Shown here: positions 19,783 to 36,029 of the stretch, one piece after another | Layout: every line of letters starts with the position of its first letter | How positions within the stretch are numbered: position 1 is the stretch's first letter | Program-made: the position numbers and the translations under genes | Notes under the pieces: model-generated | The model's input: the letters and a program-made list of their open reading frames with translations, nothing else | Databases searched by the model: none | What the model was told of the DNA's origin: nothing | Assembly: GCA_012520945.1 (NCBI GenBank) | Contig: JAAYNH010000008.1 | Coordinates: 1 to 39,501, forward strand | DNA length: 39,501 bases | Direction: 5' to 3' | Origin: Treponema sp. | Lineage (GTDB): Bacteria > Spirochaetota > Spirochaetia > Treponematales > Treponemataceae

Positions 19783-19811
19783 TTGAAAATCTGTATTATT
19801 TCCATTATACT
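19783..19811 (+). promoter_or_regulatory. promoter of murB, predicted to give a leaderless mRNA
   Basis: TTGAAA at 19783-19788, 17 bases, TATACT at 19806-19811. Seven bases later comes the murB ATG (19819). The predicted transcription start therefore coincides with, or is one base before, the A of ATG, and there is no Shine-Dalgarno sequence. Confidence 0.75.
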
Positions 19812-19832
19812 GCTTTATATGAATGCTTGCAA
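19804..19832 (-). promoter_or_regulatory. promoter of cysS, overlapping the murB promoter
   Basis: On the minus strand TTGCAA (19832-19827), 17 bases, TATAAT (19809-19804). The predicted start at about 19797 gives a 25-base leader with GAGG. Its -10 shares four base pairs with the -10 of murB, and its -35 lies inside the murB coding region. The two promoters cannot be occupied together. Confidence 0.75.
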
Positions 19833-20724
19833 TATTGAAGATATATTAAATATTAATAAAATTGATGCAGAATTAGAATCAGATGCAGATTTCAAAGATT
19901 TGTGTACTTTTAAGGTTGGCGGAAAGATAAAAGTCTTGGTTTCTCCAAAAGATGTTAAAAGTTTTACAAAGCTAATTAGTGTTTTTAATAAGAAAAAAAT
20001 TAATTATTTTATATTAGGGGGAGGGTCAAATATAGTACCTCCGGAAAAGGATTTTAAAAAAATTGTACTTTCAACAAAAAAATTAAATAAAATAACTTAT
20101 GATGGTGAAAAACTAATTTGTGGTTCCGGTGCAAAAATTGATGAAATTATTCAATATTGTAAAGATAATTCATTAACAGGTATGGAAAATTTTTGTGGTT
20201 TGCCCGGAACTATCGGTGGAGCTGTATATATGAATGCACGTTGTTATGATAAGTCAATTAGTGATATACTTTTAGAAGTAAAATATGTCCAAAATGATAC
20301 CGTGCAAATTTATAAAAAAAATAAAGATGATTGGGATTATAAAGTGTCTCCTTTTCAGAAAAATAAAAAATGTATAGTAGAAGTATTTTTTGAAGTAAAA
20401 AAAGGTCATAAAAAAGAAATTATAGCAAATTGTGAAAATTTCTTTTTAGATAGATATGAAAAAGGACATTTTAAATTTCCGTCAGCGGGTAGTGTTTTTA
20501 AAAATAATCGTAATTATGGTAAGCCGTCCGGTAAAATTATTGATGAAGCTGGTCTTTGCGGTAAAATTATCGGTGGAGCACAAATTGCTCCATGGCATGG
20601 AAATTTTATTATTAATACAGGTAAAGCCACTGCCGATGATATAAAAAAATTGGTTAATTATGTAAAAATGCACGTAAAAAAACAAACCGGATTTAAACTT
20701 GATTGTGAAATCATTTTTTTATAG
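19819..20724 (+). CDS. murB: UDP-N-acetylenolpyruvoylglucosamine reductase
   Basis: A 301-residue FAD enzyme that reduces enolpyruvyl-UDP-GlcNAc to UDP-MurNAc in peptidoglycan precursor synthesis. Motifs: TFKVGGKIKVLVSP, LGGGSNIVPP (FAD phosphate contacts), GMENFCGLPGTIGGAVYMNA, KFPSAGSVFKNN with the catalytic-type serine, and SGKIIDEAGLCGKIIGGAQI. I start it at the ATG at 19819. A longer reading from TTG at 19783 would use the promoter -35 as a start codon and adds an unrelated hydrophobic stretch. With the ATG start no Shine-Dalgarno sequence exists and the mRNA should be leaderless. Confidence 0.95.
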   Translation: MNACNIEDILNINKIDAELESDADFKDLCTFKVGGKIKVLVSPKDVKSFTKLISVFNKKKINYFILGGGSNIVPPEKDFKKIVLSTKKLNKITYDGEKLICGSGAKIDEIIQYCKDNSLTGMENFCGLPGTIGGAVYMNARCYDKSISDILLEVKYVQNDTVQIYKKNKDDWDYKVSPFQKNKKCIVEVFFEVKKGHKKEIIANCENFFLDRYEKGHFKFPSAGSVFKNNRNYGKPSGKIIDEAGLCGKIIGGAQIAPWHGNFIINTGKATADDIKKLVNYVKMHVKKQTGFKLDCEIIFL

Positions 20725-20768
20725 TACATATTTGTTTTTTCTATTAACATTTATTTAATAATGGTTAG

Positions 20769-20797
20769 TTGACAGATTTTCATTTGCGTTTTATAAT
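20769..20797 (+). promoter_or_regulatory. perfect-consensus promoter of the double cNMP-binding regulator
   Basis: TTGACA at 20769-20774, exactly 17 bases, TATAAT at 20792-20797. The predicted start is at about 20804, 14 bases before the GTG start codon. This is the best match to consensus in the window. Confidence 0.9.
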
Positions 20798-20817
20798 GAT
20801 ACAATGGGGTTTAGGAA

Positions 20818-21987
20818 GTGTTACAGTTATCGTTTGTTAATTTTAGAAAAGGCTCTTATATCTTTGTGGAAGGCAAGGCCGGCGGTGATAAATTTTACAT
20901 CATTCAGAACGGTAAAGTACGTAGCTACAAAGAATTAGAAATTGGTGACGATGTAGCTGTTACATATGGTCCGGGTGATTTTATCGGTGTTATTCCGTGT
21001 ATGTCAGGACACTCTCAGATTGAAACTGTTGTTGCTTTAACAGATGTTGTTGCAATTGCTGTACGTCGCGATCAATATCCGGCTCTTATTGCAAAAAATA
21101 CTCCCGTTGCTATGAAAATTATTAGAACTTTTGCCAACAGAATGCGTATATTAAATGAAACGTTGACAAAGGTTACTCTGAAAAACAATATTATTTCGTC
21201 CCCTGAACAACTTTTTGTAATTGCTCAATATTATGAGAAAGTAGGTCAACCCAATCTTGCAATTTATGGTTATTATCAATATATAAAAGCTTGTTCGCAG
21301 GGCTATGATGTTGAAAAAGCCAAACAACGATTTGTTGCATTAAAACCGCGCACTAATGCTGTTTATTTTGAACCGACTAATGATTTAATGCGTTCTTATC
21401 CTAAAAACACAATGATTTTTTCTGAATGTCAGAATGGTCAAGAGATGTTTATTATCCAAGAAGGACAGGTAAAAATATCTAAAGTTGTTGACGGTAATGA
21501 GGTAATTTTAGCGGTATTAAAAAAAGGTGATTTTTTTGGTGAAATGGCCTTGCTTGAAAATAAACCGCGTTCTGCCAGTGCTATTGCACATGAAGATTGT
21601 AAATTGATGGTTGTAAATCGTCAAAACTTTGAAAAATTAGTTAGTAGCCAACCACAATTAATTGCCAGTTTGACAACAACTTTATCTGAACGTTTGTGGG
21701 CAATGTCACGTCAATTAGCTAATACGCAAATTCGCGATCCATTATTTAAACTATTTGATATGTTATCTTTACAATTAGAAAAAGCACGTGTTGTTGTAAC
21801 TTCAGGTACAGCATATCAGTTTGATATTACTCCTTATGATTTGGCAAATATGTGTGGTATTCCTCAGGAAGAACAAGGCTCACTTTTGGCTACTTTTGTA
21901 AAAGATTCCAGAATTAAACTTGTAAATAATAAAATTTTTGTACCTGATTGTTATGAAATAACAAAAATTGGACCTCTTTATAGATAA
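20818..21987 (+). CDS. double cyclic-nucleotide-binding domain protein with CRP-like C-terminus
   Basis: A 389-residue cytoplasmic regulator with a GTG start. The first cNMP domain spans about residues 9-110 and the second about 190-310, separated by a short TPR-like helical stretch (FVIAQYYEKVGQPNLAIYGY). The second domain has the intact phosphate-binding cassette FFGEMALLENKPRSASA. The first reads FIGVIPCMSGHSQIETVVA and lacks both the FGE motif and the arginine, so it probably does not bind a cyclic nucleotide. The last 75 residues (YDLANMCGIPQEEQGSLLAT … IFVPD) look like the winged helix of CRP/FNR proteins. AGGA lies unusually close to the start. A DNA-binding role is likely but not certain. 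Confidence 0.85.
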   Translation: MLQLSFVNFRKGSYIFVEGKAGGDKFYIIQNGKVRSYKELEIGDDVAVTYGPGDFIGVIPCMSGHSQIETVVALTDVVAIAVRRDQYPALIAKNTPVAMKIIRTFANRMRILNETLTKVTLKNNIISSPEQLFVIAQYYEKVGQPNLAIYGYYQYIKACSQGYDVEKAKQRFVALKPRTNAVYFEPTNDLMRSYPKNTMIFSECQNGQEMFIIQEGQVKISKVVDGNEVILAVLKKGDFFGEMALLENKPRSASAIAHEDCKLMVVNRQNFEKLVSSQPQLIASLTTTLSERLWAMSRQLANTQIRDPLFKLFDMLSLQLEKARVVVTSGTAYQFDITPYDLANMCGIPQEEQGSLLATFVKDSRIKLVNNKIFVPDCYEITKIGPLYR

Positions 21988-22077
21988 ATTTCATTATTTT
22001 ACATCTAAATAAATTTTTGATTAATTTTAATTTATAAAATCATTTTAAAAATTCTTTAATTTTGTCGATAGTAAAAT

Positions 22078-22605
22078 ATGAAGAGAATTGTATTTTTTAT
22101 ATTTTTATTTAGTAATTATTTTCTTTTTTCGCAGTCTTCAGATTTACCGCATGGATACAGAAATATTAATCTTGGTATGACTTTAGAGTCTGTTAAAAAA
22201 GAATTGTTGTCCGATTCTGTTTTTGGCTATAGAGGAGACCGTGATGTTAGTTTGTTGCCGAATGGTTATAAACAGACAATCATTGAAACTTCAAATAACG
22301 GTTTTTTGAGTGCTACTTGGTTTTTATTTAATGAAAATAGACTTTATAATATGACAATAAATATCAATCGTGAGCTGATGGACTATCATTCAGTTTTTTT
22401 AACATTATGTAATAAATATGGACAGCCTGAATTTTTGAATCCTGAAAAAGCTATATGGCAAAACGAATGGATACAAATGACTTTGGAAAGACCTCTTTCA
22501 ATTAAATATATGGATATGATTGTTTTTAATAGTTTACAAGAAGAGTCCGGTGTTGACCAAAGTGTGCGTGAAATGCTCAGAGAAGATTTTTTGGACAGTC
22601 TATAA
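22078..22605 (+). CDS. small secreted protein of unknown function
   Basis: A 175-residue protein with a signal peptide (MKRIVFFIFLFSNYFLFSQ). The mature part opens with LPHGYRNINLGMTLESVKKEL, a pattern common in periplasmic proteins where a short helix follows "G-M-s-ve-vk". It then alternates strands and helices (ATWFLFNENRLYNMTINI, FLTLCNKYGQPEFLNPEKAIW). I do not recognise a named family. No Shine-Dalgarno sequence and no convincing promoter is visible in the 90-base AT-rich gap before it. Its stop overlaps the stop of the convergent DUF192 gene by a few bases. Confidence 0.7.
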   Translation: MKRIVFFIFLFSNYFLFSQSSDLPHGYRNINLGMTLESVKKELLSDSVFGYRGDRDVSLLPNGYKQTIIETSNNGFLSATWFLFNENRLYNMTININRELMDYHSVFLTLCNKYGQPEFLNPEKAIWQNEWIQMTLERPLSIKYMDMIVFNSLQEESGVDQSVREMLREDFLDSL

Positions 22606-23043
22606 GATTAGTTTATCTCCAACTTTAATATTAACTTTTTCAAACCAGTTTTGTGGAACTTCTAATGCATAACGAACGCTTGAAGTGCTTTTAATTGTTG
22701 CTAAACTGTATGGCGTCATGTGAAAAATATCTTTTATAATACCATTTGTGTCGATGTAAGCAATGGAAAGAGGTAGTGGTGTATTTTTCATCCAAAAGCT
22801 TAAAATTTGATCTTTTTCAAAAATAAAAAGCATACCCGTTCCTTCAGGGATTTTTTTTCTTTCCATAAATCCAAAATTTCGTTCGTCAGGTGTTTTTGCA
22901 ATTTCTACTTTTATGTAAACTGTTGTGCCATCTGAACGTTCAAGTGTAAAAACTTTTTTTTCAAGTTTACTTTGTGAACAAGAGAATAAAAGCGGTAAAA
23001 AACAAAAAGAAAAAATAATTAAAGAATTTTTAAAAATTTTCAT
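22600..23043 (-). CDS. DUF192-family lipoprotein
   Basis: A 147-residue lipoprotein with lipobox LFSC at residue 22 and the whole DUF192 domain behind it. Family marks are TPDERNFGFMERKKIPEGTGMLF, then ILSFWMKNTPLPLSIAYID, IKDIFHMTPYS and YALEVPQNWFEKVNIKVGD near the end. The family is a small conserved beta protein without an established function. AAGGAAA precedes the ATG by nine bases. It lies 17 bases after the TPR gene stop and is likely in the same transcript as the TPR and PilZ genes. The tail overlaps the convergent gene's stop codon region. Confidence 0.9.
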   Translation of the reverse strand: MKIFKNSLIIFSFCFLPLLFSCSQSKLEKKVFTLERSDGTTVYIKVEIAKTPDERNFGFMERKKIPEGTGMLFIFEKDQILSFWMKNTPLPLSIAYIDTNGIIKDIFHMTPYSLATIKSTSSVRYALEVPQNWFEKVNIKVGDKLIL

Positions 23044-23060
23044 ATATAGGTTTCCTTAAT

Positions 23061-24197
23061 TTATAAATTTTCTAACGCTTTTTTTGCCAGTTCATCATTT
23101 TTGTCAAATGCAAGAACAGTTTCAAAAAAAGTTTTTGCTTTTTTTGTGTCGCCTTTTTTTAAATATAAAATGCCTAAATTACTCATAATTTTTGTATTTT
23201 CGGGTTCAATTTTTAGTGCTTCAAAAAGTTTTTGTTCACATTCAGCTAAATTTCCCATTTCTAGCAAACAAATTGCAAGTTCATTATATGTATCGCTATT
23301 GTTGCCACCTAAAATAATGGCTTGTTCAAAAGCTTTTGAAGCATCGTGCCACTGTTCAAGTCGACGTAAAGCCCAACCGAGCATAAACCAGGCATTCCAT
23401 ACTTTTGGATTTTTTTTAATAAATGCCTTTATTTCATCAAGGGCTTTTTCTTCATTGTTATTTTGTATTGATTCATAAGCAGATTTAAATAAATCATCTT
23501 CTAAATTACGTGATTTTATGTCGTTGATAATTTCTTTAGCACGTTGCCTTTTATAACGAACGTTTTCATCTATATTTTTTTCATCAATACTCTCCGTTAA
23601 GATAAGAAAACTCTCAAAATATTCTTTACATAAAGAAAAATTTTTTTGTTTAAGATAAAAAAAGCCTGCATTAAAATATGCATCAGGGAATGGATCTTCA
23701 ACACAAAGACAAATTTTATAATATTTTTCAGCTTCAGCATCATATGCATCGGCATCTTCATGTAGTCCACTGCGTCTGTAACTTGAAGCTCTTTCATCAA
23801 AAAAGAGTGCGGAGTTTAAAATTGTAATCATATTTTCAGGATCTAAACCACGCAAAGAAGCAAAAATTTCTTCAGCAATATCAAAGTCTTCATTCCGTGC
23901 TTTTAAGATAGCCGCTTCCATTAGTTCTGTTTGAATTTCCGGTCGTGCACTTTTAAGTAAATATCTATAATAATCAATATGTTGATTGTTAGTATCATAT
24001 GCTAAAATTGTCAAAATACCTGCTAGAATCATTTCTAATGTTAAAGATGATGTATCAAAATCATCTTTGTGTGCTTGCTCTTTAGTAATTTGAACAGGAA
24101 GTGGAATTGTATTGTCTACGGAGAAATCTTTTACCGGTAATTTGAAAGACTCGGGTAAATTAATAAAAACTACTGAATTTAATGCTTCTGATGCCAT
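23061..24197 (-). CDS. tetratricopeptide repeat protein
   Basis: A 378-residue cytoplasmic-type protein without a signal peptide or membrane segment. The N-terminal 60 residues are unique (VVFINLPESFKLPVKDFSV). The rest is helical, with TPR units. Those at the C-terminus are clear: VWNAWFMLGWALRRLEQWHDA, DTYNELAICLLEMGNLAECEQ, IMSNLGILYLKKGDTKKAK. TPR arrays bind partner proteins; no partner can be named. AGGTGA lies five bases before the ATG. The 8-base gap after the PilZ gene makes co-transcription very likely, so a part in c-di-GMP-linked behaviour is possible. Confidence 0.85.
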   Translation of the reverse strand: MASEALNSVVFINLPESFKLPVKDFSVDNTIPLPVQITKEQAHKDDFDTSSLTLEMILAGILTILAYDTNNQHIDYYRYLLKSARPEIQTELMEAAILKARNEDFDIAEEIFASLRGLDPENMITILNSALFFDERASSYRRSGLHEDADAYDAEAEKYYKICLCVEDPFPDAYFNAGFFYLKQKNFSLCKEYFESFLILTESIDEKNIDENVRYKRQRAKEIINDIKSRNLEDDLFKSAYESIQNNNEEKALDEIKAFIKKNPKVWNAWFMLGWALRRLEQWHDASKAFEQAIILGGNNSDTYNELAICLLEMGNLAECEQKLFEALKIEPENTKIMSNLGILYLKKGDTKKAKTFFETVLAFDKNDELAKKALENL

Positions 24198-24205
24198 TGA
24201 ATCAC

Positions 24206-25045
24206 CTATGATTTTTTTTGATTTATTGATGTCGCTTTTGACAATTGATTTTTACGAACTGTCGTTAGATAATTATTTATTCGAATTTTGAAAGGCATTG
24301 GAATTTCTTTTTCATCAAAACTTATGTTTGCCGCAATTAAACCTTTACGACCTTGAATTGCAGAAACAGCAACAACTTTTCCCTTTAATGAAATTGTTTC
24401 CGTTGGATCTTGGAAATCCAAACGTAATAGAGTTTCTTTATCTTGAACAAATTGTGGCAAGCCAAGTAAAATAATTTTAGCACCTGAAAATGAAAGGTCA
24501 CGTACAACACAATGCCTAGGTACATTTTGAATTTCCACAATTGTTTCTTCTTTAACAAGATTTAGTTTTCTTTTTGATTCATCATTTATTATAATGCGTT
24601 CTTCTTTGCGTCGAACAGCATTAACATTTGCTTCTAAAAGAGTACCGATTTTTTCAATAAAATCATCAGGTGGTCGTTGTGAAAAACCTAATGTTATAAT
24701 TGCTAAGTCATTAGAATTCATATATTTTGTAATTTTTGTAACACGAGTTGTAATAAAAAAACTAATAGGTTGGTTATCATCTTGTAAAAAATAAAAACGT
24801 AATTGTACAGTTGTAGGATTTCGGGATAATGCTTGAAAAGCGCCACCTTTTGTGCCAATAATGATTTTAGACTGTAAAAATGATGTAGAGTTAATGATAC
24901 ATGGCCATTGAGCACCTTCACTTTTTATATAAATTTGACGAGGGTTGATTTTTAGAGTTTTAATAACTTCTTTTGAGAATATAATTTCTACATCACGATA
25001 TAAGTCATAATATTTTGAAATTTGCTGGCTAGTGAGAATCCCCAT
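24206..25045 (-). CDS. PilZ-domain c-di-GMP-binding protein, PlzA-like
   Basis: A 279-residue protein with two parts: an N-terminal beta domain (about residues 10-135) of the kind found in spirochaetal PlzA-type proteins, and a canonical PilZ domain (about 143-270). The c-di-GMP-binding residues are intact: RKEER (R146, R150) and DLSFSG (D183, S185, G188). Such proteins translate c-di-GMP level into motility or host-association behaviour in spirochaetes. A promoter lies immediately upstream, its -10 ending seven bases before the ATG. There is no Shine-Dalgarno sequence, so the mRNA is predicted to be leaderless. It heads a PilZ-TPR-DUF192 operon. Confidence 0.88.
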
Positions 25046-25052
25046 ACAATCA

Positions 25053-25081
25053 ATGATAAATAATTATTTGAAAATCGTCAA
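25053..25081 (-). promoter_or_regulatory. promoter of the PilZ operon, predicted leaderless
   Basis: Minus strand: TTGACG (25081-25076), 17 bases, TATCAT (25058-25053), seven bases, ATG at 25045. Each hexamer matches consensus in five of six positions. Confidence 0.65.
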
Positions 25082-25105
25082 TGCTTTTGTTAGTGCTTTT
25101 TATAG

Positions 25106-25140
25106 AAAAAAAAGACTTCGATATATATTCGAAGTCTTTT
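25106..25140 (-). terminator. terminator of rpsU
   Basis: A perfect 12-base-pair stem, 25110-25121 with 25129-25140, around a 7-base loop. In the rpsU direction it is followed by a run of eight T. It insulates rpsU from the PilZ promoter just downstream. Confidence 0.9.
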
Positions 25141-25148
25141 ACTTAGTA

Positions 25149-25364: not shown

Positions 25365-25381
25365 AAATATATTCACCTCCC

Positions 25382-25700: not shown

Positions 25701-25712
25701 GGAGGTGTGAAA

Positions 25713-27491
25713 ATGACTAAAAGTTTTGTTGTTAAAACAATTTTGGCGATGTTACTAATTGTAACATTTGTATTTAGCGGTTGTAAATTAATTGAAAATG
25801 ATGAACTGTACGCTTTTCAAACAGAAGATAGTCGTGCAACAATTACGGGTATTTCATCATTATATTCAAATGATTTAACGCATGGAACATATACTTCAAG
25901 TTTTTCAAAAGGTAATTATAAAATTTATGCAACTTCTTCAAAAAAAGTTACTGTTCCGTATTCAAGTGCAAGTCTTGAAGGTAAAAGTTTTACTCAAAGC
26001 TTGAATCTTGGTGGTGGCGGTAGTGTTGGTTCATATCGTTGTGTTGAATTTTCAACAGGCGGTAAAGCTACTATTACTGTTTTTGCAAAAGGAGCTAGTG
26101 GTCGTTATTTGGCAATTTATAATTCAAGCAAAAGCCAGCTTGATAAGAAAAATACATCATCATCTATTGCAAAATATACTTTTACGGTTTCTTCTTCCGG
26201 CACATATACTTTAATGTCTACCGGTTCTGCAATTGAGATTTTCTATATTAAAACAGATGCAAGCGGTACAAGTAGTTCATCATCAAGCTCAAGTTCATCA
26301 TCAAGTTCAAGTTCATCAAGCGGTTCAACAGCCGGTTCCGGTACAATTTCAATTAATGACAGACCTGTAGGTTTTGCAAGTGTTTCTAAGCCGTCAAATT
26401 CAGTTACAGTTTCAAGTCGTTCAGATTTGATTAATTATGCAAAAAAAGGCGGATACATTATTTACGTAAATGGCATGATTGATATGTCAGACGGATATCT
26501 TCCTTCAAGTGGCGGTGGCGGAAGTTCAAAATTAGATGCATTAGTTAAATCAAATACATCCGGTAAATATTCTTCATATACAGCTTTCCGTGATGCATAT
26601 GCAAAAGGTTGTTCAACTTCAACAGATGATAAATCTTCGTCAAGTCCTTCAAGTTCATTAGGTAAATATCTTTGGGCTTGTAATAAAGCATATGGTGATA
26701 TTATCAAATTGAATGTTGCTTCAAATACGTGGATTATTGGTAAAAGCTCATCATCCGGTATCAAAGGCGGTATGGTTAATATTTCAAGTGTTTCAAATGT
26801 TGCTATTCGTAATCTTATTATTCAAGATGGTTATGATCCATTCCCACATCATGAAAAAAATGATGGTTACAATTCACAATGGGATAATCTTCTTATACAA
26901 GGTACATCACAAAATATTTGGATTGACCATTGTACATTCAGAGACACAATGGGTGTAATAAATGTTAAAACCGGTGGTTCAACAACTGAAAAATGGCAAA
27001 CATATGATGGTTTGTGCGATATGAAAGGTTCAATTAAGAATATCGTTATTTCATACTGTAAGTTTATGGACCATGATAAAACAATGTTAATTGGTTCAAG
27101 CGACAGTGACGGATCAAATTCAACAAGAACAATTACAGTGCACCATAACTATTTTTATAACTGTGGACAACGTTTACCAATGGTTCGTAACACAAAATTA
27201 CACTTGTTTGGAAACTACTATGATTCATCAAGTCCGCGTTATGCAAACCAGTATGCTTGTGGCGTTCGTAAAAATGCTTTGATTGTGTCCGAAAAGAATT
27301 ATTTTGGAAAAGGTATCAAATATAGTTTCAAAGATAGCTATGGAAAGCTTTATTCAAGCGGTGATGTTGATAATTCCAGTGGTGGATGCAAAACTTCTAA
27401 GAGTTCATCAAAACCGTTTAGCGTTTCATATAGTTATTCTGCAAACTATAATAATGCTAAGTCATATGCAGGAACTGGTACTTTGAAGTAG
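25713..27491 (+). CDS. lipoprotein pectate lyase, family PL1, with N-terminal carbohydrate-binding-like module
   Basis: A 592-residue lipoprotein (lipobox FSGC, Cys24). The ATG at 25713 stands five bases after GGAGGTG, so I prefer it to the GTG at 25707 that overlaps the ribosome site. A beta module (about residues 45-180) is homologous to the two modules in the larger lyase: SFTQSLNLGGGGS, GRYLAIYNS, GTYTLMSTGSAIEIFYI. A polyserine linker follows, then the PL1 lyase (about 215-592). Family residues are NIWIDHCTF (D405), DGLCDMKGS, FMDHDKTMLIGSSDSD and QRLPMVR (R487, R492), the catalytic-arginine motif. It should cut polygalacturonate at the cell surface and act together with the larger enzyme. 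Confidence 0.94.
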   Translation: MTKSFVVKTILAMLLIVTFVFSGCKLIENDELYAFQTEDSRATITGISSLYSNDLTHGTYTSSFSKGNYKIYATSSKKVTVPYSSASLEGKSFTQSLNLGGGGSVGSYRCVEFSTGGKATITVFAKGASGRYLAIYNSSKSQLDKKNTSSSIAKYTFTVSSSGTYTLMSTGSAIEIFYIKTDASGTSSSSSSSSSSSSSSSSSGSTAGSGTISINDRPVGFASVSKPSNSVTVSSRSDLINYAKKGGYIIYVNGMIDMSDGYLPSSGGGGSSKLDALVKSNTSGKYSSYTAFRDAYAKGCSTSTDDKSSSSPSSSLGKYLWACNKAYGDIIKLNVASNTWIIGKSSSSGIKGGMVNISSVSNVAIRNLIIQDGYDPFPHHEKNDGYNSQWDNLLIQGTSQNIWIDHCTFRDTMGVINVKTGGSTTEKWQTYDGLCDMKGSIKNIVISYCKFMDHDKTMLIGSSDSDGSNSTRTITVHHNYFYNCGQRLPMVRNTKLHLFGNYYDSSSPRYANQYACGVRKNALIVSEKNYFGKGIKYSFKDSYGKLYSSGDVDNSSGGCKTSKSSSKPFSVSYSYSANYNNAKSYAGTGTLK

Positions 27492-28085: not shown

Positions 28086-28787
28086 ATGGTATACACTTCA
28101 GAAGTGGAACATATGTGTCCATTGGCTAAAGCTACTTATCATGGTCCAGCCCCGATTCCTTCGGAAGGAAAATGGGTTAAAGTTAAAGAAATCAAAGATG
28201 TTTCAGGTTTTACACACGGTGTAGGTTGGTGTGCTCCACAACAAGGTGCCTGTAAACTTACATTAAATGTAAAAGATGGCATCATTGAAGAAGCACTTGT
28301 TGAAACACTTGGTTGTTCCGGTATGACCCATTCAGCTGCAATGGCAAGTGAAATTCTTATTGGAAAGACTTTGCTTGAAGCATTAAATACAGATCTTGTT
28401 TGTGATGCTATTAATACTGCAATGCGTGAGCTTTTTTTACAAATTGTTTATGGACGTACGCAATCCGCTTTTTCAGAAGGTGGTCTTTCAATAGGAGCTT
28501 CATTGGAGGACTTAGGAAAGGGACTTCGCAGTCAAGTAGGAACAATATTTGCTACAAAAGCAAAAGGTCCTCGTTATTTGGAAATGGCTGAAGGATATGT
28601 TGAAAAAGTTGCAGTTGATGCAGATGGTGCAATTATTGGATATAAATTTATTCATTTTGGAAGAATGATGGATTTTATTAAAAAGGGTGATGATCCTGCA
28701 ACTGCAATGGATAAATCTCGTGGTTCTTACGGTCGTACAACTGAAGAAGACGGCGCTGTAAAATTAATTGACCCACGTCATGAATAA
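28086..28787 (+). CDS. NifU-like iron-sulfur scaffold-type protein paired with GGGtGRT protein
   Basis: A 233-residue protein with a NifU/IscU-like N-terminal half. Conserved cysteines are C11, C49 and C56 (GWCAPQQGACKL) and C77 in ETLGCSGMTHSAAMASE, which corresponds to the GC-x-x-S motif of the scaffold family. A further cysteine sits in DLVCDAIN. The C-terminal half (EGYVEKVAVDADGAIIGYKFIHFGRMMDFI) is specific to this subfamily. It is always, as far as I know, found beside the GGGtGRT gene, as here, with 17 bases between the two. AGGAG precedes the ATG. A role in binding or delivering an iron-sulfur cluster is inferred from the cysteines. Confidence 0.82.
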   Translation: MVYTSEVEHMCPLAKATYHGPAPIPSEGKWVKVKEIKDVSGFTHGVGWCAPQQGACKLTLNVKDGIIEEALVETLGCSGMTHSAAMASEILIGKTLLEALNTDLVCDAINTAMRELFLQIVYGRTQSAFSEGGLSIGASLEDLGKGLRSQVGTIFATKAKGPRYLEMAEGYVEKVAVDADGAIIGYKFIHFGRMMDFIKKGDDPATAMDKSRGSYGRTTEEDGAVKLIDPRHE

Positions 28788-28804
28788 TACGGAGGAAAAC
28801 GAAA

Positions 28805-29812
28805 ATGGCAGAAATTAAATTTGAAAGCTACGAACGCCGTATTGATAAAGTTCTTGCAGCACTTAAAGAAAACGGCATTTCATCAATTAAAGAAGCAAAA
28901 GAAATCTGTGATAAAGCAGGTATCGATCCATATAAAATTGTTGAGGAAACACAACCAATTTGTTTTGAAAATGCAAAATGGGCATACGTTTGTGGAGCTG
29001 CAATTGCAATTAAAAAGGGTTGTACAAATGCTGCAGATGCAGCTGAAGCAATCGGAATTGGATTACAATCATTTTGTATACCCGGCTCTGTAGCCGATGA
29101 TCGTAAAGTTGGTATTGGACATGGAAAATTGGCTGCACGTCTTTTGCGTGAAGAAACAAAATGTTTTGCTTTTTTAGCCGGACATGAATCATTTGCTGCA
29201 GCTGAAGGTGCTATAAAAATTGCACAAAAAGCCGATCAAGTACGTAAAGAACCATTGCGTTGCATTTTAAACGGACTTGGAAAAGATGCTGCACAAATTA
29301 TTAGTCGCATTAACGGCTTTACATATGTTCAAACTGAATTTGATTATTTTACAGGTGAGCTTAAAATTATTAAAGAAATTCCTTATTCAAAAGGTGATCG
29401 TGCAAAAGTAAAATGTTATGGTTCGGATGATGTTCGCGAAGGTGTTGCAGTAATGTGGCATGAAGGAGTTGACGTTTCAATCACAGGGAACTCTACAAAT
29501 CCAACACGTTTTCAACATCCTGTTGCAGGAACATATAAAAAAGAATGTGTAGAAAAAGGAAAAAAATATTTTTCTGTAGCTTCCGGAGGTGGAACAGGAC
29601 GTACATTGCACCCGGATAATATGGCTGCCGGTCCTGCTTCTTACGGTATGACCGACACAATGGGACGTATGCATTCAGATGCACAATTTGCAGGTTCTTC
29701 ATCAGTACCGGCTCACGTTGAGATGATGGGTTTTTTGGGAATCGGTAACAATCCAATGGTTGGTGCAACTGTTGCTGTGGCTGTAGATGTTTCAAAAGCC
29801 CTATCAAAATAA
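28805..29812 (+). CDS. GGGtGRT family protein
   Basis: A 335-residue protein of an uncharacterised conserved family named for the motif seen here as SGGGTGRTLHPDN. Other strongly conserved-looking stretches are GLQSFCIPGSVADDRKVGIGHGKLAARLL, NGLGKDAAQIISRINGFTYVQ and the Gly/Ala-rich end (GIGNNPMVGATVAVAVDVSKAL). There is no signal peptide or membrane segment, so it is cytoplasmic. GGAGG is nine bases before the ATG. It forms a two-gene operon with the NifU-like protein and ends at a bidirectional terminator. It is probably a client or partner of that protein; the reaction is unknown. Confidence 0.88.
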   Translation: MAEIKFESYERRIDKVLAALKENGISSIKEAKEICDKAGIDPYKIVEETQPICFENAKWAYVCGAAIAIKKGCTNAADAAEAIGIGLQSFCIPGSVADDRKVGIGHGKLAARLLREETKCFAFLAGHESFAAAEGAIKIAQKADQVRKEPLRCILNGLGKDAAQIISRINGFTYVQTEFDYFTGELKIIKEIPYSKGDRAKVKCYGSDDVREGVAVMWHEGVDVSITGNSTNPTRFQHPVAGTYKKECVEKGKKYFSVASGGGTGRTLHPDNMAAGPASYGMTDTMGRMHSDAQFAGSSSVPAHVEMMGFLGIGNNPMVGATVAVAVDVSKALSK

Positions 29813-29864: not shown

Positions 29865-29906
29865 AAAAAAAGTCGGTTTCTTTTTTTAGAAATCGGCTTT
29901 TTTTTA
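29865..29906. terminator. bidirectional terminator between the GGGtGRT operon and the E2-like gene
   Basis: Bases 29869-29880 pair with 29889-29900 (12 pairs, two G-T). T runs follow in both directions. It serves both convergent genes. Confidence 0.88.
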
Positions 29907-30797
29907 GTCAATATCATGAACAATTGTTGTAGGTGGCTCTTCTAAAAGTTCAGGATTTTTTAGATATTTGCGTATTTCATGTAAAGCCGCCGCATAATAA
30001 TGTCCATCACAAATTCTTTCATCCATAGTAATATTTAATTCAAGATAACGAATTTTATGAACGGAACCATCATTTAATATTTCATTTTGTCGACGTATTG
30101 CACTAAATGAAATAAACATCGGAACATTTCCAAAGTCATATAAGTGATGGTAAATTGGTGGAATGCCCAAAGATGCCATAGATGTAATAACTAGAGAACC
30201 GTGAAAAGGACTGACATTTAGTAAAAATTTTGGTAGCCATCCATGATAATCAAGCCATATTAAAAATTTTATAATAGCTTTAAGCATAAATCTGGGAATA
30301 AAACCTAAAAATTTTGCTACAAAATCAAAGGCGTTATTTTCTTCTGTATTTGAATCTTTAAATTCATCAATTTTTTCGTTAAATTGAGTATAAACATCGT
30401 GCAACGTTGCATTTTGATTAAAAATAAATTTCATCATTGTTTCAGGTGCATCTATTTTAAGTTCTTTTTTTACTGCCATAATAATTTCAATGTTATGACG
30501 AGCAAAAATTCTAAGTCCACTTAAAAAACGATTAATTCCCGGTTTTTGTGATACTGCACGAATGTATGCTGCGATTAAAATATGCATTGCACTTAGTCCA
30601 TGCATTCCATCAGCTCTTTTTTTGTGAATATATTTGTCAATTTTATTCATAGGAATGGAATCTTTAAAATAGTTTGATGCACCTATTCTTGTTGGCATTA
30701 TAAATGGTCCTACAATGGAGATAGGGTCAATTGTTCGAAGTCTGCGTCCGTCGCTACGGTCACCAAAACGCTTTTTGTGTTTTATAGTGCTGTTCAT
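29904..30797 (-). CDS. stand-alone 2-oxoacid dehydrogenase E2-type acyltransferase-like protein
   Basis: A 297-residue protein that has the catalytic-domain fold of E2 acyltransferases but no lipoyl domain and no subunit-binding domain. Family features include the segment GLSAMHILIAAYIRAVSQKPGINRFL and the C-terminal DERICDGHYYAAALHEIRKYL. In true E2 enzymes the second motif is DHRxxDG, with the histidine as catalytic base. Here it is glutamate (E260, codon GAA), with a histidine only at 266. No pyruvate dehydrogenase genes lie nearby. The promoter ends six bases before the ATG, so the mRNA is predicted to be leaderless. The enzyme activity and substrate are unknown. Confidence 0.75.
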   Translation of the reverse strand: MNSTIKHKKRFGDRSDGRRLRTIDPISIVGPFIMPTRIGASNYFKDSIPMNKIDKYIHKKRADGMHGLSAMHILIAAYIRAVSQKPGINRFLSGLRIFARHNIEIIMAVKKELKIDAPETMMKFIFNQNATLHDVYTQFNEKIDEFKDSNTEENNAFDFVAKFLGFIPRFMLKAIIKFLIWLDYHGWLPKFLLNVSPFHGSLVITSMASLGIPPIYHHLYDFGNVPMFISFSAIRRQNEILNDGSVHKIRYLELNITMDERICDGHYYAAALHEIRKYLKNPELLEEPPTTIVHDID

Positions 30798-30803
30798 TTA
30801 TAT

Positions 30804-30833
30804 ATTATATATTGAGAATACTGAAAATGTCAA
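30804..30833 (-). promoter_or_regulatory. promoter of the E2-like gene, predicted leaderless
   Basis: Minus strand: TTGACA (30833-30828), 18 bases, TATAAT (30809-30804), six bases, ATG at 30797. Both hexamers are perfect and no Shine-Dalgarno sequence can fit. Confidence 0.85.
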
Positions 30834-30856
30834 TTTTTTTATAAAAACTTATGTCA

Positions 30857-30885
30857 TTGTATTTTTTTATCAATGCATATATAAT
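30857..30885 (+). promoter_or_regulatory. promoter of argH, predicted leaderless
   Basis: TTGTAT (30857-30862), 17 bases, TATAAT (30880-30885), seven bases, ATG at 30893. The same -35 and -10 pair drives the FN3 operon. Confidence 0.75.
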
Positions 30886-30892
30886 ATGCTTC

Positions 30893-32305
30893 ATGAATAA
30901 GAAAAAAAATGCTTTAGATGGTGGAAATCATGCTGCTTTATGGCATGGAAGATTTACAGAAGGACCGGATGCTGAAGCTATAGCTTTTGAAACTTCTATT
31001 TATGTTGATTCAAGAATGGCATTTGATGATATTGCCGGTAGTATAGCACATGCAAAAATGCTTGGTGAAATGAAAATCATATCCCGTGATGAAGCTGAAC
31101 AAATTGTTAATGAGCTGGAAAATATTAGACATGATTTAAAAAATGGAAGTCTTCAAATAAATGAAAGTGCAGAAGATATTCATTCTTTTATAGAAGGTGT
31201 ACTAACGGACAGAATTGGTGAAGCAGGAAAAAAATTACATACAGGACGTAGTAGAAATGATCAAATTGCATTGGATGAACGATTGTGGTTGCGTCGTGCA
31301 ATTCCGGATTTACAAAAACGCATTCATACATTAATTAAAACATTAACTGAAATTGCTGAAAATCATACTGAAAGTTTGCTTAGCGGTTATACTCATTTAC
31401 AAAGGGCACAACCTGTAACATTAGCTCATCATTTGTGTGCATGGTGCTGGATGCTAGTTCGCGACTATGAACGTTTTAGTGATGCATTGAAACGTATCGA
31501 TTTATCTCCGTTAGGAAGTGGTGCGTTGGCAGGAAGTACGTTACCGCTAAATCGTGAAATGGTTGCTTCATTTTTAAGTTTTTCCGGTGTAACACAAAAT
31601 TCTTTAGATAGTGTTTCTGATAGAGATTATTTCCTTGAGATGAGTTCTGCATTGGCAATTTTACAAACTCATTTATCACGTTTTTGTGAAGAAATTGTTT
31701 TGTGGAGTACAGAAGAATTTAAATTTATAGATTTGTCGGAAAAATGGTCTACAGGTTCAAGTATTATGCCACAAAAGAAAAATCCTGATTTTGCAGAATT
31801 AATTCGTGGGCGTACAGGAAAAGTTTATGGTAACATGGTCGCACTTTTTACTATGATAAAAGCTTTGCCACTTTCATATAATCGTGATTTACAAGAAGAC
31901 AAGTCTTCATTTTTTGATGCATATGATACTGTCTATTCTTGTCTTGGTATTTTTATCCATATGATCGGTAGTACGAAGTGGAATGTTGATAAAATGGCTG
32001 CATCTTGTTTTGGTGGATATGCTAATGCAACTGACTTGGCTGATTATGTTGTAAGAAAAGGAATGCCATTTAGAACTGCACATGGAGTAGCAGCTCGATT
32101 AGTGCGTAAAGCTATTGAAAAAAAATGTAACTTGGAAGATTTATCTTTAGAAGAAATGAAAAGTGAAAGTGATTTAATTGAAGAAGATATTTTTGACATG
32201 ATTAGTCCGCGAGCTTGCATGGAAGGAAGAAAAACTACAGGTGGTCCAAGCCCGAATTGTGTTAAAGAACAAATTAAACAATTGAAAAACTTTGTGAAAA
32301 AATAA
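30893..32305 (+). CDS. argH: argininosuccinate lyase
   Basis: A 470-residue enzyme that splits argininosuccinate into arginine and fumarate. The family signature GSSIMPQKKNPD (around residue 288) is intact, as are LHTGRSRNDQIA, SGYTHLQRAQPVTLAHH and SVSDRDYFLE. I use the ATG at 30893 (MNKKKNALDGG). An in-frame ATG at 30851 lies upstream of the -35 hexamer and adds 14 residues unlike the family. No other arginine gene is in the window, so it is an isolated locus here. It is followed after 15 bases by the cyclase gene. Confidence 0.95.
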   Translation: MNKKKNALDGGNHAALWHGRFTEGPDAEAIAFETSIYVDSRMAFDDIAGSIAHAKMLGEMKIISRDEAEQIVNELENIRHDLKNGSLQINESAEDIHSFIEGVLTDRIGEAGKKLHTGRSRNDQIALDERLWLRRAIPDLQKRIHTLIKTLTEIAENHTESLLSGYTHLQRAQPVTLAHHLCAWCWMLVRDYERFSDALKRIDLSPLGSGALAGSTLPLNREMVASFLSFSGVTQNSLDSVSDRDYFLEMSSALAILQTHLSRFCEEIVLWSTEEFKFIDLSEKWSTGSSIMPQKKNPDFAELIRGRTGKVYGNMVALFTMIKALPLSYNRDLQEDKSSFFDAYDTVYSCLGIFIHMIGSTKWNVDKMAASCFGGYANATDLADYVVRKGMPFRTAHGVAARLVRKAIEKKCNLEDLSLEEMKSESDLIEEDIFDMISPRACMEGRKTTGGPSPNCVKEQIKQLKNFVKK

Positions 32306-32320
32306 ATTATAAAGAATTTT

Positions 32321-33595
32321 ATGAAAAAAATATTTTTTTTATTTTCCATAATTTTATTTATCCTAATAGTTTTGTGTTTTATTTATATTGTTAGGATTTT
32401 GCCTCAACACTTGCTACCTTTTAGTTCAGGATTAATTTTTCTTTTTGTTGCATTTTACTTTTCCGGCATTTTTTTTGTAACATATGTTTCAGACAAAGAT
32501 AATAAATTTATTAGAAAAGAAAATTTTGATGACTTGGAATTAATTTTACTTAGTTTAAATTTCGAAAAAGACATATGCATTGAAACGGCAAAATGGATTT
32601 TTCAATATTTAGTTTTAGATTACGTTTGTTTTTCCGGAGTGGCAATTTATTTTTCCGGTAAAAAACAATTTGAAGATGAAGTTCTTGAGCGGATAAAAAA
32701 TTATAACAAAAAATTAAACGATAAAGAAATTGTTAGTTTTATAAATAATTCATTTGTAATAGGATTTAAAACTTCACCTGAAGAAAGTGCAAAATTATTT
32801 TTTAAAGTTTCGGATTTTTATTCAAATTATCAAATATTACAAATAAAAAAACTTTTTATTCCGATTACTCGAATTTTAACAAAAGCATTTTTTTCAATAA
32901 ATTCAATAACTGCAAACAAGGAAAAAAATCAATTACATTATGCTTTTTCTAGATATGTTTCACCTGAGGTTGTAAATCAACTCGTTCATGATCCAAATAT
33001 GTTACACGTTGGCGGAAAAAATAAAAATCTTTCCGTTATTTTTACTGACTTAAATAACTTTACTATTCTTTCAGATTCTATGGAGCCTGAAAAATTAGTT
33101 CGTGTTTTAAATATGTATTTAAATGAAATGAGTGAAGTAATAATTGCTTTAGGTGGCACAATTGATAAATTTGATGGGGACGCTATTTTAGCTTTTTTTG
33201 GTGCTCCAACTGATATGGAAAATCATGCACAACTTTGTTGTCGTGCAGCATTACGTATGAAAAAAATGGAACAAATTTTAAATGAACAACTACTACATGA
33301 AAAAATGATAAAACTTCCTTTGATAACACGCATGGGTATTAATACAGGAAATATGATTGTTGGAAATATAGGTTCGTTAAAAAGATTAGATTATACAGTT
33401 ATAGGTAGGAATGTTAATATTGCTTCACGTATTGTAAATGAAAATAAAAAATACGGAACAAGTATTTTAGTTAGTGAATCAACATGGAATTTAGTAAAAA
33501 ATGATTTTGAAGGACGTTTTGTTGATACGGTTGCATTGCGTGGTGTTCGTAAACACGTTGCAATTTATGAAATATTATCTGAAAAAGGAGAATAA
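32321..33595 (+). CDS. membrane-bound class III adenylate/guanylate cyclase
   Basis: A 424-residue protein with two N-terminal membrane segments (FFLFSIILFILIVLCFIYIV and LIFLFVAFYFSGIFFVTYV). A 170-residue linker without a recognised sensor domain follows, then a class III cyclase domain from about residue 238. The metal-binding aspartates are D243 (FTDLNNFT) and D287 (KFDGDAIL). The DYTVIG … VNIASRI segment gives the base-selecting threonine and the transition-state Asn and Arg. Lys in TIDKF and Thr in DYT favour ATP over GTP. Without a Shine-Dalgarno sequence it probably depends on transcription from argH. A TATAAA stands seven bases before the ATG but lacks a well-placed -35. Confidence 0.9.
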   Translation: MKKIFFLFSIILFILIVLCFIYIVRILPQHLLPFSSGLIFLFVAFYFSGIFFVTYVSDKDNKFIRKENFDDLELILLSLNFEKDICIETAKWIFQYLVLDYVCFSGVAIYFSGKKQFEDEVLERIKNYNKKLNDKEIVSFINNSFVIGFKTSPEESAKLFFKVSDFYSNYQILQIKKLFIPITRILTKAFFSINSITANKEKNQLHYAFSRYVSPEVVNQLVHDPNMLHVGGKNKNLSVIFTDLNNFTILSDSMEPEKLVRVLNMYLNEMSEVIIALGGTIDKFDGDAILAFFGAPTDMENHAQLCCRAALRMKKMEQILNEQLLHEKMIKLPLITRMGINTGNMIVGNIGSLKRLDYTVIGRNVNIASRIVNENKKYGTSILVSESTWNLVKNDFEGRFVDTVALRGVRKHVAIYEILSEKGE

Positions 33596-33613
33596 TAATT
33601 ATTTTACTTTATA

Positions 33614-34762
33614 ATGGAAAAGCGTAATTTTCTTTTTTTGTATTTAAATACCGGTAGTGGGCATCTATCTCCCTCAAAAATTTTAAAAACTGAATTTGAA
33701 ATATTTATGAATAAAAATAATGTAGATGGTTCAGTTACTTTATTAAATGGTTTCGCTGAATATCAAAAAATTGCACATACTTTTTTTGAGGATGGTTATA
33801 GATACACATCATTGTACTTGCAGGGGGCATATTCTTTTTTTTATGACATAACAACTATTCCATCAATTTTAAATTTTGTAAAATTTTGTTGTGGTTTAAG
33901 AACTGTTTCATTTTTAAAAAAAATTATAATTAAAAATAATATTACAGATGTTGTAAGTTTTCATTTTGCAGTTACACCTTCGGCTAGTAAAGCATGTAAA
34001 AAAATTTTTCTTGAAACAGGAAAAAAAATTCCCGTAACACAAGTAATAACAGATCCATTTACAGCTCATCCTGCATGGTATTTAGTTCCTAACGCAAAGT
34101 TTGTTGTTTTTTCAAAACAGATTAAGGAAAAAATTATTAAAGAAAAGTTAATAGACGAAAATGCAAAAATTGAAAATTTTGATTTTATTATCGGAAATAA
34201 ATTTTACCCACCATCAAAAGATGAAATATTTGAATTAAAAACAAAACATTTTTCGAATTTTTCTAATTATGATTTTACTAAAAAAACTATTTTAGTTGTC
34301 GGTGGTGGAGATGGACTAAAAGGAATGTATAAATTAGTTAAAGAATTTTGTTCCATAAAAGATTTTAATTTTATTGTTATTTGCGGAAAAGTAAAAAAGC
34401 GACTTGAAAAAGTAAATAAAATTATTAAAAAAAATAATTCAAAAAACATTTTTGTTTATGACTATGTTAATTTCATAAGTGATTTTATAAAAATTTCGGA
34501 CTGTGTAATAACTAAAGCAGGTGCAAATATAATGATGGAAGTACTTGCATGTAAAAAACCAATTATTGTTTCTAATTATATTCATGGCCAGGAAAAAGGA
34601 AATGTGGAACATATTATTAAAAGTAGAGCAGGGTGGTTTATTCAAAGTCCAAAAAAAATTATACAAAAAATTTTATCATTAAAAAATGTTGAAGATATTA
34701 TTACTGAAAAGTTTGAAAAACGCGACTATGAAAGATTGATAAAATTCATTGTAGATAGATAA
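33614..34762 (+). CDS. GT28-type glycosyltransferase, MGDG-synthase/UgtP-like
   Basis: A 382-residue enzyme of the MurG/diacylglycerol glucosyltransferase type. The N-terminus has the nucleotide-sugar/lipid loop NTGSGHLSPSKIL. The middle has ITDPFTAHPAWYLVPNAKFVV, typical of diacylglycerol glycosyltransferases. The C-terminal Rossmann part has VVGGGDGLKGM and the sugar-nucleotide signature TKAGANIMMEVLACKKPIIV followed by GQEKGN. It probably adds a hexose to diacylglycerol on the inner face of the membrane. The following GT4 gene suggests a second sugar or an alternative anomer. No ribosome site is visible, and it lies 18 bases after the cyclase. Confidence 0.85.
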   Translation: MEKRNFLFLYLNTGSGHLSPSKILKTEFEIFMNKNNVDGSVTLLNGFAEYQKIAHTFFEDGYRYTSLYLQGAYSFFYDITTIPSILNFVKFCCGLRTVSFLKKIIIKNNITDVVSFHFAVTPSASKACKKIFLETGKKIPVTQVITDPFTAHPAWYLVPNAKFVVFSKQIKEKIIKEKLIDENAKIENFDFIIGNKFYPPSKDEIFELKTKHFSNFSNYDFTKKTILVVGGGDGLKGMYKLVKEFCSIKDFNFIVICGKVKKRLEKVNKIIKKNNSKNIFVYDYVNFISDFIKISDCVITKAGANIMMEVLACKKPIIVSNYIHGQEKGNVEHIIKSRAGWFIQSPKKIIQKILSLKNVEDIITEKFEKRDYERLIKFIVDR

Positions 34763-34777
34763 CTTTAGGTAGTTAGC

Positions 34778-34805
34778 TTGACTAATGTTCTATTAGAAGT
34801 ATAAT
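34778..34805 (+). promoter_or_regulatory. promoter of the GT4 gene, predicted leaderless
   Basis: TTGACT (34778-34783), 16 bases, TATAAT (34800-34805), six bases, ATG at 34812. It lies in the 49-base gap after the GT28 gene. Confidence 0.75.
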
Positions 34806-34811
34806 TTAATT

Positions 34812-36029
34812 ATGAATATTGCATTATTTTCAGATTCATATATTCCGACAAAAAGTGGTATTGTTACAGTTGTTGTTCAACTTAAAAAAGTACTCATGGA
34901 TATGGGACATAATGTCTTTGTAGTAACTGTTGATACAAAAAAAGACAATGAAAAAGATGATTATGTTTTAAAATTAAAAAGTGTACCGCTCGGCTTAGGA
35001 ACAGATCAGTTTATTAGTTTTCCTGAAAAGAAAAAAGTATTAAAATTTATTCGTGATAATAATATTGACATTATCCATTGTCATACTGAATTTTTTATTG
35101 CTCATATGGCAAAGATTGTCGGAAAGAAATTTAATATTCCAACTATTGTTACAACACATACAATGTGGGAAGATTTTTATAAACATTATCTTCCAGGTGC
35201 AAAATATTTTATTCCGGTAAGCATGATTCGTAAACTTACCAAGAGACTTTATAAAAAGTTTTATGCTATGATTAATGTTTCTAGTAAAGCAAGAAATTAT
35301 TTTAAAGAAAGTTTTATGTTACCAAATATTCCTTCTGCAATAATTCCAAATGCAATTGATACATCACTGTTTTTACATAAAGAAGTAAAAGATGAGGATT
35401 TAAAAAAGATAAAACAAAATTTAGGAATTAATTTAGATGATAAAGTTATTCTTTTTGTTGGTCGGATAGGAGAAGAAAAACGAGTATTAGAATTACTTGA
35501 TGAATGTATAAAGATTGTAAATAAAAATGAAAATGTAAAGTCTGTTTTTGTTGGAGACGGACCGGCTTTTCATCAAATGACACAAGTTGTTAAACAAAAA
35601 AAATTAACAGAAAAAATTCTTTTTACAGGCTTTGTTAAATGGACAGAAGTATATTTATATTACAGAATTGCAGATGTTTTTGTTACAGCTTCAATGTCAG
35701 AAATGCATTCTATGACTATTCTTGAAGCAATGCTTTCAAAATTACCAATTGTTGCACGTGATGATTTAAGTTTTCATGATACTATCTTCAATGAAAAAAA
35801 TGGATATCTCTGTAAAACCGATAATGAAATTTCAGAAAAAGTTTGTGAGTTAATTCTAGATGAAAATAAATTAAAAAAATTTGGTGATAATAGTTTAAAA
35901 ATTGCAAATAATTTTTCAATGGAAACTTATGCGAAAAAAACAGTTCATTTTTATGAATATATTATTGAGCATTATCCAAATTCAATTGATGAAAATGATT
36001 TGAGAGAAAAAATTGAAAAATTAAATTAA
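34812..36029 (+). CDS. GT4-family glycosyltransferase, probable diacylglycerol glucosyltransferase
   Basis: A 405-residue GT-B enzyme. The N-terminal domain starts FSDSYIPTKSGIVTVVVQLKK and has DIIHCHTEFF and PTIVTTHTMWEDFYKHYLP, as in lipid glucosyltransferases of Acholeplasma and gut bacteria. The C-terminal donor domain has LFVGRIGEEKRVLELL, FVGDGPAFHQM and the E-x7-E motif SEMHSMTILEAM. It probably transfers a hexose from a nucleotide sugar to diacylglycerol or a monoglycosyl lipid. Its own promoter, with the -10 ending six bases before the ATG, predicts a leaderless mRNA. The downstream outer-membrane protein gene follows after 4 bases. Confidence 0.86.
   Translation: MNIALFSDSYIPTKSGIVTVVVQLKKVLMDMGHNVFVVTVDTKKDNEKDDYVLKLKSVPLGLGTDQFISFPEKKKVLKFIRDNNIDIIHCHTEFFIAHMAKIVGKKFNIPTIVTTHTMWEDFYKHYLPGAKYFIPVSMIRKLTKRLYKKFYAMINVSSKARNYFKESFMLPNIPSAIIPNAIDTSLFLHKEVKDEDLKKIKQNLGINLDDKVILFVGRIGEEKRVLELLDECIKIVNKNENVKSVFVGDGPAFHQMTQVVKQKKLTEKILFTGFVKWTEVYLYYRIADVFVTASMSEMHSMTILEAMLSKLPIVARDDLSFHDTIFNEKNGYLCKTDNEISEKVCELILDENKLKKFGDNSLKIANNFSMETYAKKTVHFYEYIIEHYPNSIDENDLREKIEKLN

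Follow-up and report, generated by a model that had tools for sequence, protein, structure and literature searches.

Can a treponeme translate some of its genes from mRNAs that begin at the start codon itself? The question is raised by a stretch of Treponema sp. DNA of 39,501 nucleotides (nt; JAAYNH010000008.1), hereafter called the window, which is the entire contig C14 of a draft genome of 2.19 Mb. An earlier note on this DNA had pointed to five genes (murB, a PilZ gene, an E2-like gene, argH and a family 4 glycosyltransferase or GT4 gene) whose −10 boxes lie 6 or 7 bases before ATG, and had proposed that the organism uses leaderless mRNAs, and with them a second class of translation initiation, for a real share of its genes. 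Read from the window sequence, the five geometries are present exactly as claimed, boxes and spacings included, and a scored Shine-Dalgarno (SD) motif occurs in none of the five. Our analysis suggests that ordinary sigma-70-type promoters very probably yield leaderless mRNAs in this genome, alongside a normal SD system. The genes and their promoters are as follows, the gap being the number of bases between the −10 hexamer and the start codon.

19783..19821, + strand: murB promoter and start; −35 TTGAAA (19783-19788), spacer 17, −10 TATACT (19806-19811), gap 7, ATG 19819-19821
19819..20724, + strand: murB, predicted leaderless; gene call, Pfam FAD_binding_4 and MurB_C
25043..25081, − strand: PilZ gene promoter and start; −35 TTGACG (25081-25076), spacer 17, −10 TATCAT (25058-25053), gap 7, ATG 25045-25043
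24206..25045, − strand: PilZN3-PilZ protein, PlzA homologue, predicted leaderless; Pfam, structure match to PDB 7mie
30795..30833, − strand: E2-like gene promoter and start; −35 TTGACA (30833-30828), spacer 18, −10 TATAAT (30809-30804), gap 6, ATG 30797-30795
29904..30797, − strand: 2-oxoacid dehydrogenase acyltransferase-like (E2-like) protein, predicted leaderless; partial match to Pfam PF00198
30857..30895, + strand: argH promoter and start; −35 TTGTAT (30857-30862), spacer 17, −10 TATAAT (30880-30885), gap 7, ATG 30893-30895
30893..32305, + strand: argH, argininosuccinate lyase, predicted leaderless in this genome; Pfam
34778..34814, + strand: GT4 gene promoter and start; −35 TTGACT (34778-34783), spacer 16, −10 TATAAT (34800-34805), gap 6, ATG 34812-34814
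34812..36029, + strand: family 4 glycosyltransferase (GT4), predicted leaderless; Pfam

Distance between the −10 box and the start codon

The distance from −10 box to start codon was tabulated, as the earlier note had proposed, in 563,227 bases of the same genome including the window (about one quarter of the genome, taken as stretches), with 400 genes. The gene calls relied solely on codon usage and the frequency of start codons, which kept upstream signals from swaying the choice of start; those shorter than 240 bases, open at the end of a stretch or within 60-90 bases of it were excluded. A hexamer was taken as a −10 box if it differed from TATAAT at no more than one position, T1, A2 and T6 being fixed. 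Such a hexamer stands at gap 6-7 in 49 of the 400 genes, whereas 300 dinucleotide shuffles of the upstream regions average 11.1 and never exceed 23; the equal frequency in shuffled sequence that would have told against the proposal was not seen. By this strict count, about one gene in eight has a −10 box placed for an mRNA that starts at or next to the start codon and would have no space for the usual ribosome-binding site.

The peak is sharp. Among the 208 genes that lack a strong SD motif, gap 6 accounts for 27 and gap 7 for 22, while each position from gap 15 to gap 45 has about three. Where the SD motif is strong (192 genes), no hexamer occurs at gaps 5 to 10, in line with the earlier remark that genes with clear SD motifs lack this geometry. 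All 49 genes of the class, the five window genes included, lack a scored SD motif; in part this follows from the design of the count, because the bases of a −10 box are not available to an SD site. Before ATGs inside genes, the hexamer stands at gap 6-7 in 132 of 10413 cases (1.3%), as compared with 12% at gene starts. With a looser −10 box (TANNNT) at gaps 5-9, the excess comes to about 56 genes, or 14% of the 400; among SD-less genes that are first of a transcription unit it comes to about 49, the first-of-unit genes being 255 in total. The share of genes with leaderless geometry in this genome is estimated at about 14%, and at about one in five of the first-of-unit genes.

The stretches were not a random sample, as some contigs were picked because an earlier scan had listed a promoter-like match on them. 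Without the window, 44 of 371 genes have the hexamer at gap 6-7, and without both the window and the contigs with such earlier matches 24 of 174 do; the sampling bias therefore does not create the excess.

Chance hexamers in AT-rich DNA, combined with misplaced start codons, could in principle imitate this pattern, and single chance matches do exist. By the shuffles, about 11 of the 49 genes could be such cases, and several matches in the flanks of the PilZ loci described below resemble, by eye, internal ATGs of a sigma-factor-like gene. The window itself holds an instructive decoy:

20769..20820, + strand: decoy promoter; TTGACA-17-TATAAT-6-ATG (20804), the ATG out of frame with the cyclic-nucleotide-binding (cNMP-binding) gene (GTG 20818)

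The likely start of the cNMP-binding gene is GTG 20818, to which the decoy promoter would give a short leader of about 14 nt, and the geometry by itself is therefore no proof of a gene start. A transcript begun at the decoy promoter would open with the AUG of a short overlapping frame. Other chance matches to the geometry in the window fall inside genes. As a general explanation, chance is refuted by the shuffles, whose maximum is less than half of the observed count, by the internal ATGs and by the position profile, and the PilZ gene repeats the geometry across 80 loci; we regard this account as extremely improbable for the class as a whole, while single genes may still be chance cases.

Promoters, start codons and products of the class

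The 49 genes have further marks of promoters at their start codons. A −35 box (TTG, at least four of six matches) stands at spacer 17 in 12 of them and in at most two at every other spacer in the range 8-29. At spacers 16-18 the count is 15/49, against 7/77 for comparable hexamers located 20-45 bases from starts, and a TGn motif precedes the −10 box in 19/49 against 4/77 of the same set. When the sequences are aligned on the −10 box alone, with no search for a −35 box, T occupies the first −35 position in 40 of the 49. The arrangement is thus that of sigma-70-type promoters, with a TTGACA-like box 16-18 bases from the −10 box, although a recognisable box is not present in every gene.

The class is also distinct in its genomic position and its start codons. 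Forty-five of the 49 genes either diverge from the gene upstream or follow it at a distance of more than 30 bases, and so count as divergent or first of a unit, compared with 210 of the 351 others (Fisher p 5e-6). Start codons are ATG in 47 and GTG in two, with no TTG, whereas the 351 other genes have 318 ATG, 29 TTG and four GTG. A pyrimidine occupies position −1 in 40/49 against 91/144 of the other SD-less genes (p 0.02).

We propose that the promoter has the form TTGaca-17-TATAAT, in part with a TGn extension, and a −10 box ending 6-7 bases before ATG. RNA polymerase with the main sigma factor would start on the A of AUG or within 1-2 bases of it and produce a leaderless mRNA, and ribosomes would load directly on the 5′-terminal AUG instead of through the SD pathway, on which about half of the genes rely. 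In other bacteria, direct loading on a 5′ AUG involves the 70S ribosome, or the 30S subunit with initiation factor 2 (IF2) and initiator tRNA, with no SD pairing. We infer both the exact start of transcription and the translation of the leaderless message from the position of these signals. The genome is not one without SD use, as described for Bacteroidetes, as the 192 strong SD motifs testify; the 16S 3′ end pattern, with its anti-SD sequence, was not found in the draft genome. Initiation factor 3 (IF3) was found in 20 of 21 genomes searched, the present one included, the single miss being a genome that is 63% complete. With IF3 present and about half of the genes SD-led, the normal initiation pathway therefore exists in parallel. 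The lack of IF3 was also considered as a cause of the leaderless class and was rejected on the same count of genomes.

The TATAAT-like hexamers might instead not be the main promoters at all. Transcription would then start farther upstream, and the AT-rich motif right in front of ATG would only keep the start codon unstructured or bind ribosomal protein S1. The low content of guanine and cytosine (GC) of the genome is compatible with this idea, and so is the work of Nakagawa et al. (PMC5397173), who warn against simply ascribing to leaderless promoters the AT bias that SD-less genes have at −20 to −10 and for whom six spirochaetes have a negative mean on an axis linked to leaderless or S1 signals. 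However, the motif is position-exact, it comes with a −35 peak at spacer 17 and an excess of TGn, and it is concentrated at the heads of units, none of which is predicted by an effect of S1 or of structure; nor would such an effect foresee the same motif in a relative with 51% GC (see below). We therefore consider this explanation very unlikely.

The start codons of several members are backed by their products. Pfam scans covered 43 of the 49 genes, and 38 of these have a match, mainly to housekeeping proteins with no common theme; they include an FtsH-like protease, histidyl- and class II (prolyl-type) tRNA synthetases, cytidylate kinase and type III pantothenate kinase, as well as NAD synthase, methylenetetrahydrofolate reductase and fumarase. 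In four proteins (cytidylate kinase, pantothenate kinase, an Exo_endo_phos protein and a HAD hydrolase), the domain match begins at residue 2 to 4 and at the first profile position; for the coaX- and cmk-like genes, that residue is 2 or 3. These start codons are therefore supported independently of the upstream DNA. For the PilZ protein, homology begins at residue 1, and the window gene has no alternative in-frame start in the 60 bases upstream. At one locus (L050:11777-13975), the pantothenate kinase and histidyl-tRNA synthetase genes diverge across 57 bases and both have the leaderless geometry, which would place two promoters within a single 57-base gap.

As regards the proteins of the window, the single solved structure matched by the PilZ protein is PlzA (7mie, E 1.5e-19). 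A TPR gene and then a DUF192 gene follow the PilZ gene on the same strand. The E2-like protein appears to be a very divergent or reduced relative of the 2-oxoacid dehydrogenase acyltransferases, because its Pfam match is limited to the end of the acyltransferase domain (residues 232-285).

Elsewhere in the window, a probably secreted protein with a serine-rich stretch is encoded at 25707-27491, with a clear SD motif (GGAGG) and a long AT-rich upstream region. A NifU-like gene and then a gene of the GGGtGRT family, both with clear SD motifs, occupy 28086-29812. A transfer-messenger RNA (tmRNA), with the tag ANNSSSYAMAA, lies at 8372-8722.

Conservation among relatives

The peak at gap 6-7 is also seen in relatives, more weakly than in the genome of the window. 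In G010, of the same family, 16 of 239 genes have the hexamer at gap 6-7 (shuffle mean 5.7), and in G004, of the same family and with 51% GC, 15 of 236 do (shuffle mean 1.9, maximum 7). A −35 box at spacer 17 accompanies three of these genes in G010 and five in G004. The pyrimidine at −1 occurs in 13/16 against 54/88 other SD-less genes in G010 (p 0.16) and in 15/15 against 59/90 in G004 (p 0.005). By the same method, Escherichia coli K-12, used as negative control, has no gene at gap 6-7 (0/154).

A strict scan for the promoter pattern was run over 120 genomes of the phylum; it is coarse, and many of its matches lie inside genes. A reversed-pattern control destroys all promoters and cannot isolate the distance to ATG, and a scan at spacing 14-15 was thus used as a second control. 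The ten genomes of the family give 234 matches at spacing 6-7 against 88 at 14-15, and the other families combined give 2591 against 1706, with a clear excess in some of them, such as f16 (1024:552). In families f16, f28, f33, f34 and f9, promoter-like pairs 6-7 bases from ATG exceed those at 14-15. The strict-scan excess is absent (17:28) from the three genomes of family f7, which were taken as Borrelia-like from their PlzA match.

For the PilZ gene, the alignment of orthologues begins at residue 1. Inspection of 23 loci by eye places the promoter TTGAC-17-TATNAT, or a sequence close to it, 6 to 9 bases before ATG in 14 of the 15 family loci, the remaining one (L143) having no clear promoter. 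The named loci are the best 80 of 422, from the Treponema group; two of them (L181, L197) come from one assembly, and the set overlaps in contigs with the 23 loci, so that the two are not independent. Scored for the best −35/−10 pair with spacers 16-18 allowed and a small bonus for 17, these 80 loci have the pair at gaps 6, 7 and 8 in 16, 47 and 11 cases, hence in 74/80, and spacer 17 in 77/80. The loci of two cultured species are among those with the geometry, Treponema ruminis RU1 (L201) at gap 7 and Treponema zioleckii kT3 (L166) at gap 8. With no bonus, spacers of 15-19 and upstream regions at least 80% identical removed, gap 6-8 is found in 52/60 and spacer 17 in 54/60, as compared with 13% at gap 6-8 in block shuffles of the PilZ upstream regions. 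The flanks of the named loci are unfit as a genome-wide sample, since all of them surround the PilZ gene, extra PilZ copies survived the motif filter, and several matches resemble internal ATGs.

The neighbours of these genes differ from them. Downstream of PilZ, the TPR gene carries an SD motif in 68 of 78 scored loci. Likewise, cysS, which adjoins murB, has one in 50 of 52, whereas murB itself, divergent from cysS, has one in 7 of 51, with a −10 box at gap 6-8 in 29 and at gap 9-10 in eight more. Rows without a usable ATG were dropped (2/53 for murB, 1/53 for cysS, 1/79 for the TPR gene); the cNMP-binding gene was not used, as 37 of the 59 rows of relatives had no usable ATG. DUF192, the third gene of the PilZ run (window 22600-23043; L156-L235), carries an SD motif at no more than 26 of the 57 loci scored and seldom a −10 box (three matches). 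To be SD-less is therefore not the same as to be leaderless. For argH, TATAAT lies 6-7 bases before a possible start in the genome of the window, in G010 and in G003, and SD-like motifs are seen by eye in others. The leaderless form thus seems to be kept nearly everywhere for PilZ and mostly for murB, and to switch for argH.

Several observations weigh against a leaderless class of this kind. By the TTG rule, most of the 49 genes have no recognisable −35 box, only the 15 mentioned above having one at spacers 16-18, and the gene caller is wrong on some starts, such as that of the gene at 22078. The gap 6-7 class leaves out 159 of the 208 genes that lack a strong SD motif and does not explain their SD-less initiation. 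The excess in G010 is modest, its 16 genes comparing with a shuffle maximum of 14; it is small in G023 of the same family (9/204, 1.4 expected) and in G057 of another family of the phylum (14/297, 7.2 expected), and G079 (same family, 1.1 Mb) has none in the strict scan (1 vs 1). An SD-like word precedes the PilZ gene in 5 of the 80 loci, and the leaderless geometry of argH is, by eye, not conserved among relatives. In other families of the order, the PilZ gap, judged by eye, is 11-14 in 6 of 8 loci and 7 in the other two; a gap of 11-14 would make the leader only a few bases long, not enough to hold an SD site. Finally, with the −10 box at gaps 7-10, a leader of 1-4 nt is no less probable than its absence for part of the set.

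These last points lead to a related view, in which very short leaders (1-8 nt) form an SD-less continuum and the start codon slides relative to a fixed promoter. It overlaps with the leaderless reading and is not counted against it. The population of gaps 8-10, both in PilZ (15/80) and in murB, and the gaps of 11-14 in several genomes outside the family speak in its favour. The maximum at gap 6-7 and the pyrimidine at −1, on the other hand, favour the A of ATG as the start of transcription. We regard such a continuum as rather unlikely.

Probable leaderless initiation in treponemes and known cases in other bacteria

If 5′ ends confirm the leaderless mRNAs proposed here, treponemes would join the bacteria with a substantial leaderless transcriptome. 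Annotation of starts from SD motifs would then misplace starts in treponemes, and expression constructs for use elsewhere would need an SD sequence of their own. Leaderless translation in a spirochaete could readily be tested on plzA or murB as single genes, and argH, which seems to alternate between SD-led and leaderless forms within the family, would be useful for studying a change of initiation mode. One may also speculate, although we hold this doubtful, that leaderless initiation in treponemes is kept by selection for particular genes, given that plzA, at almost every locus examined, and murB, at the majority, look leaderless or close to it, in contrast to the SD-led cysS and TPR genes. 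The synthesis of PlzA and MurB might then depend on the condition of the initiation machinery (e.g. the IF2/IF3 balance or 70S monosomes) and not by SD competition, which would tie a cyclic di-GMP receptor and cell-wall synthesis to the translational state of the cell.

Leptospira is in the same phylum as Treponema. In Leptospira interrogans, differential RNA-seq located the primary start of 430-450 genes at most 10 nt from the start codon, and exactly on it for 184 genes at 30 °C (PMC5243855). The 5′ ends were thus measured in L. interrogans, whereas those of Treponema sp. are predicted from sequence; the authors of that study report sigma-54 sites and no other promoter motif, in contrast to the sigma-70-type promoter described here. 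Zheng et al. (2011) predicted TA-led (leaderless) genes in six spirochaete genomes out of 18, the mean share being 3.9% (1.8-6.9%) (PMC3160421). In their genes as in those of Treponema sp., a −10-like hexamer lies about 10-12 bases upstream of the start, SD motifs are absent and shuffles serve as control, and the present class shares the −10 excess over shuffles, the absence of SD motifs and the preference for AUG. The share of about 14% in Treponema sp. compares with their mean of 3.9%, although the methods differ and the two are not strictly comparable. The word 'Treponema' does not occur in the main text of Zheng et al. (PMC3160421), and our search, which left most subscription papers outside, found no description of leaderless genes in Treponema; in two papers on T. 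pallidum the word 'leaderless' is used of antimicrobial peptides and of a gene finder that is cited there. A paper on the ribosome calls leaderless transcripts frequent in Borrelia (PMC10618245), yet the three f7 genomes have no excess in our coarse scan.

The proposal of a second class of initiation for a real share of the genes is thus supported, with two limits. The peak, its links to promoter features, the share of the genes concerned and the relatives all argue for it; it is not new in kind, considering Leptospira (PMC5243855) and the six spirochaetes (PMC3160421), and the evidence is that of sequence. The earlier note had further mentioned leaderless genes from actinobacteria and Deinococcus, in agreement with Zheng et al., who describe the same leaderless architecture beside SD-led genes in actinobacteria and Deinococcus-Thermus, with higher mean shares of 19.2% and 39.4%, respectively (PMC3160421). 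Leaderless genes are a known bacterial class, to which Treponema sp. appears to be a well supported addition, with a predicted share above the earlier prediction for spirochaetes, made by a different method, and at least one gene whose leaderless geometry is conserved across species.

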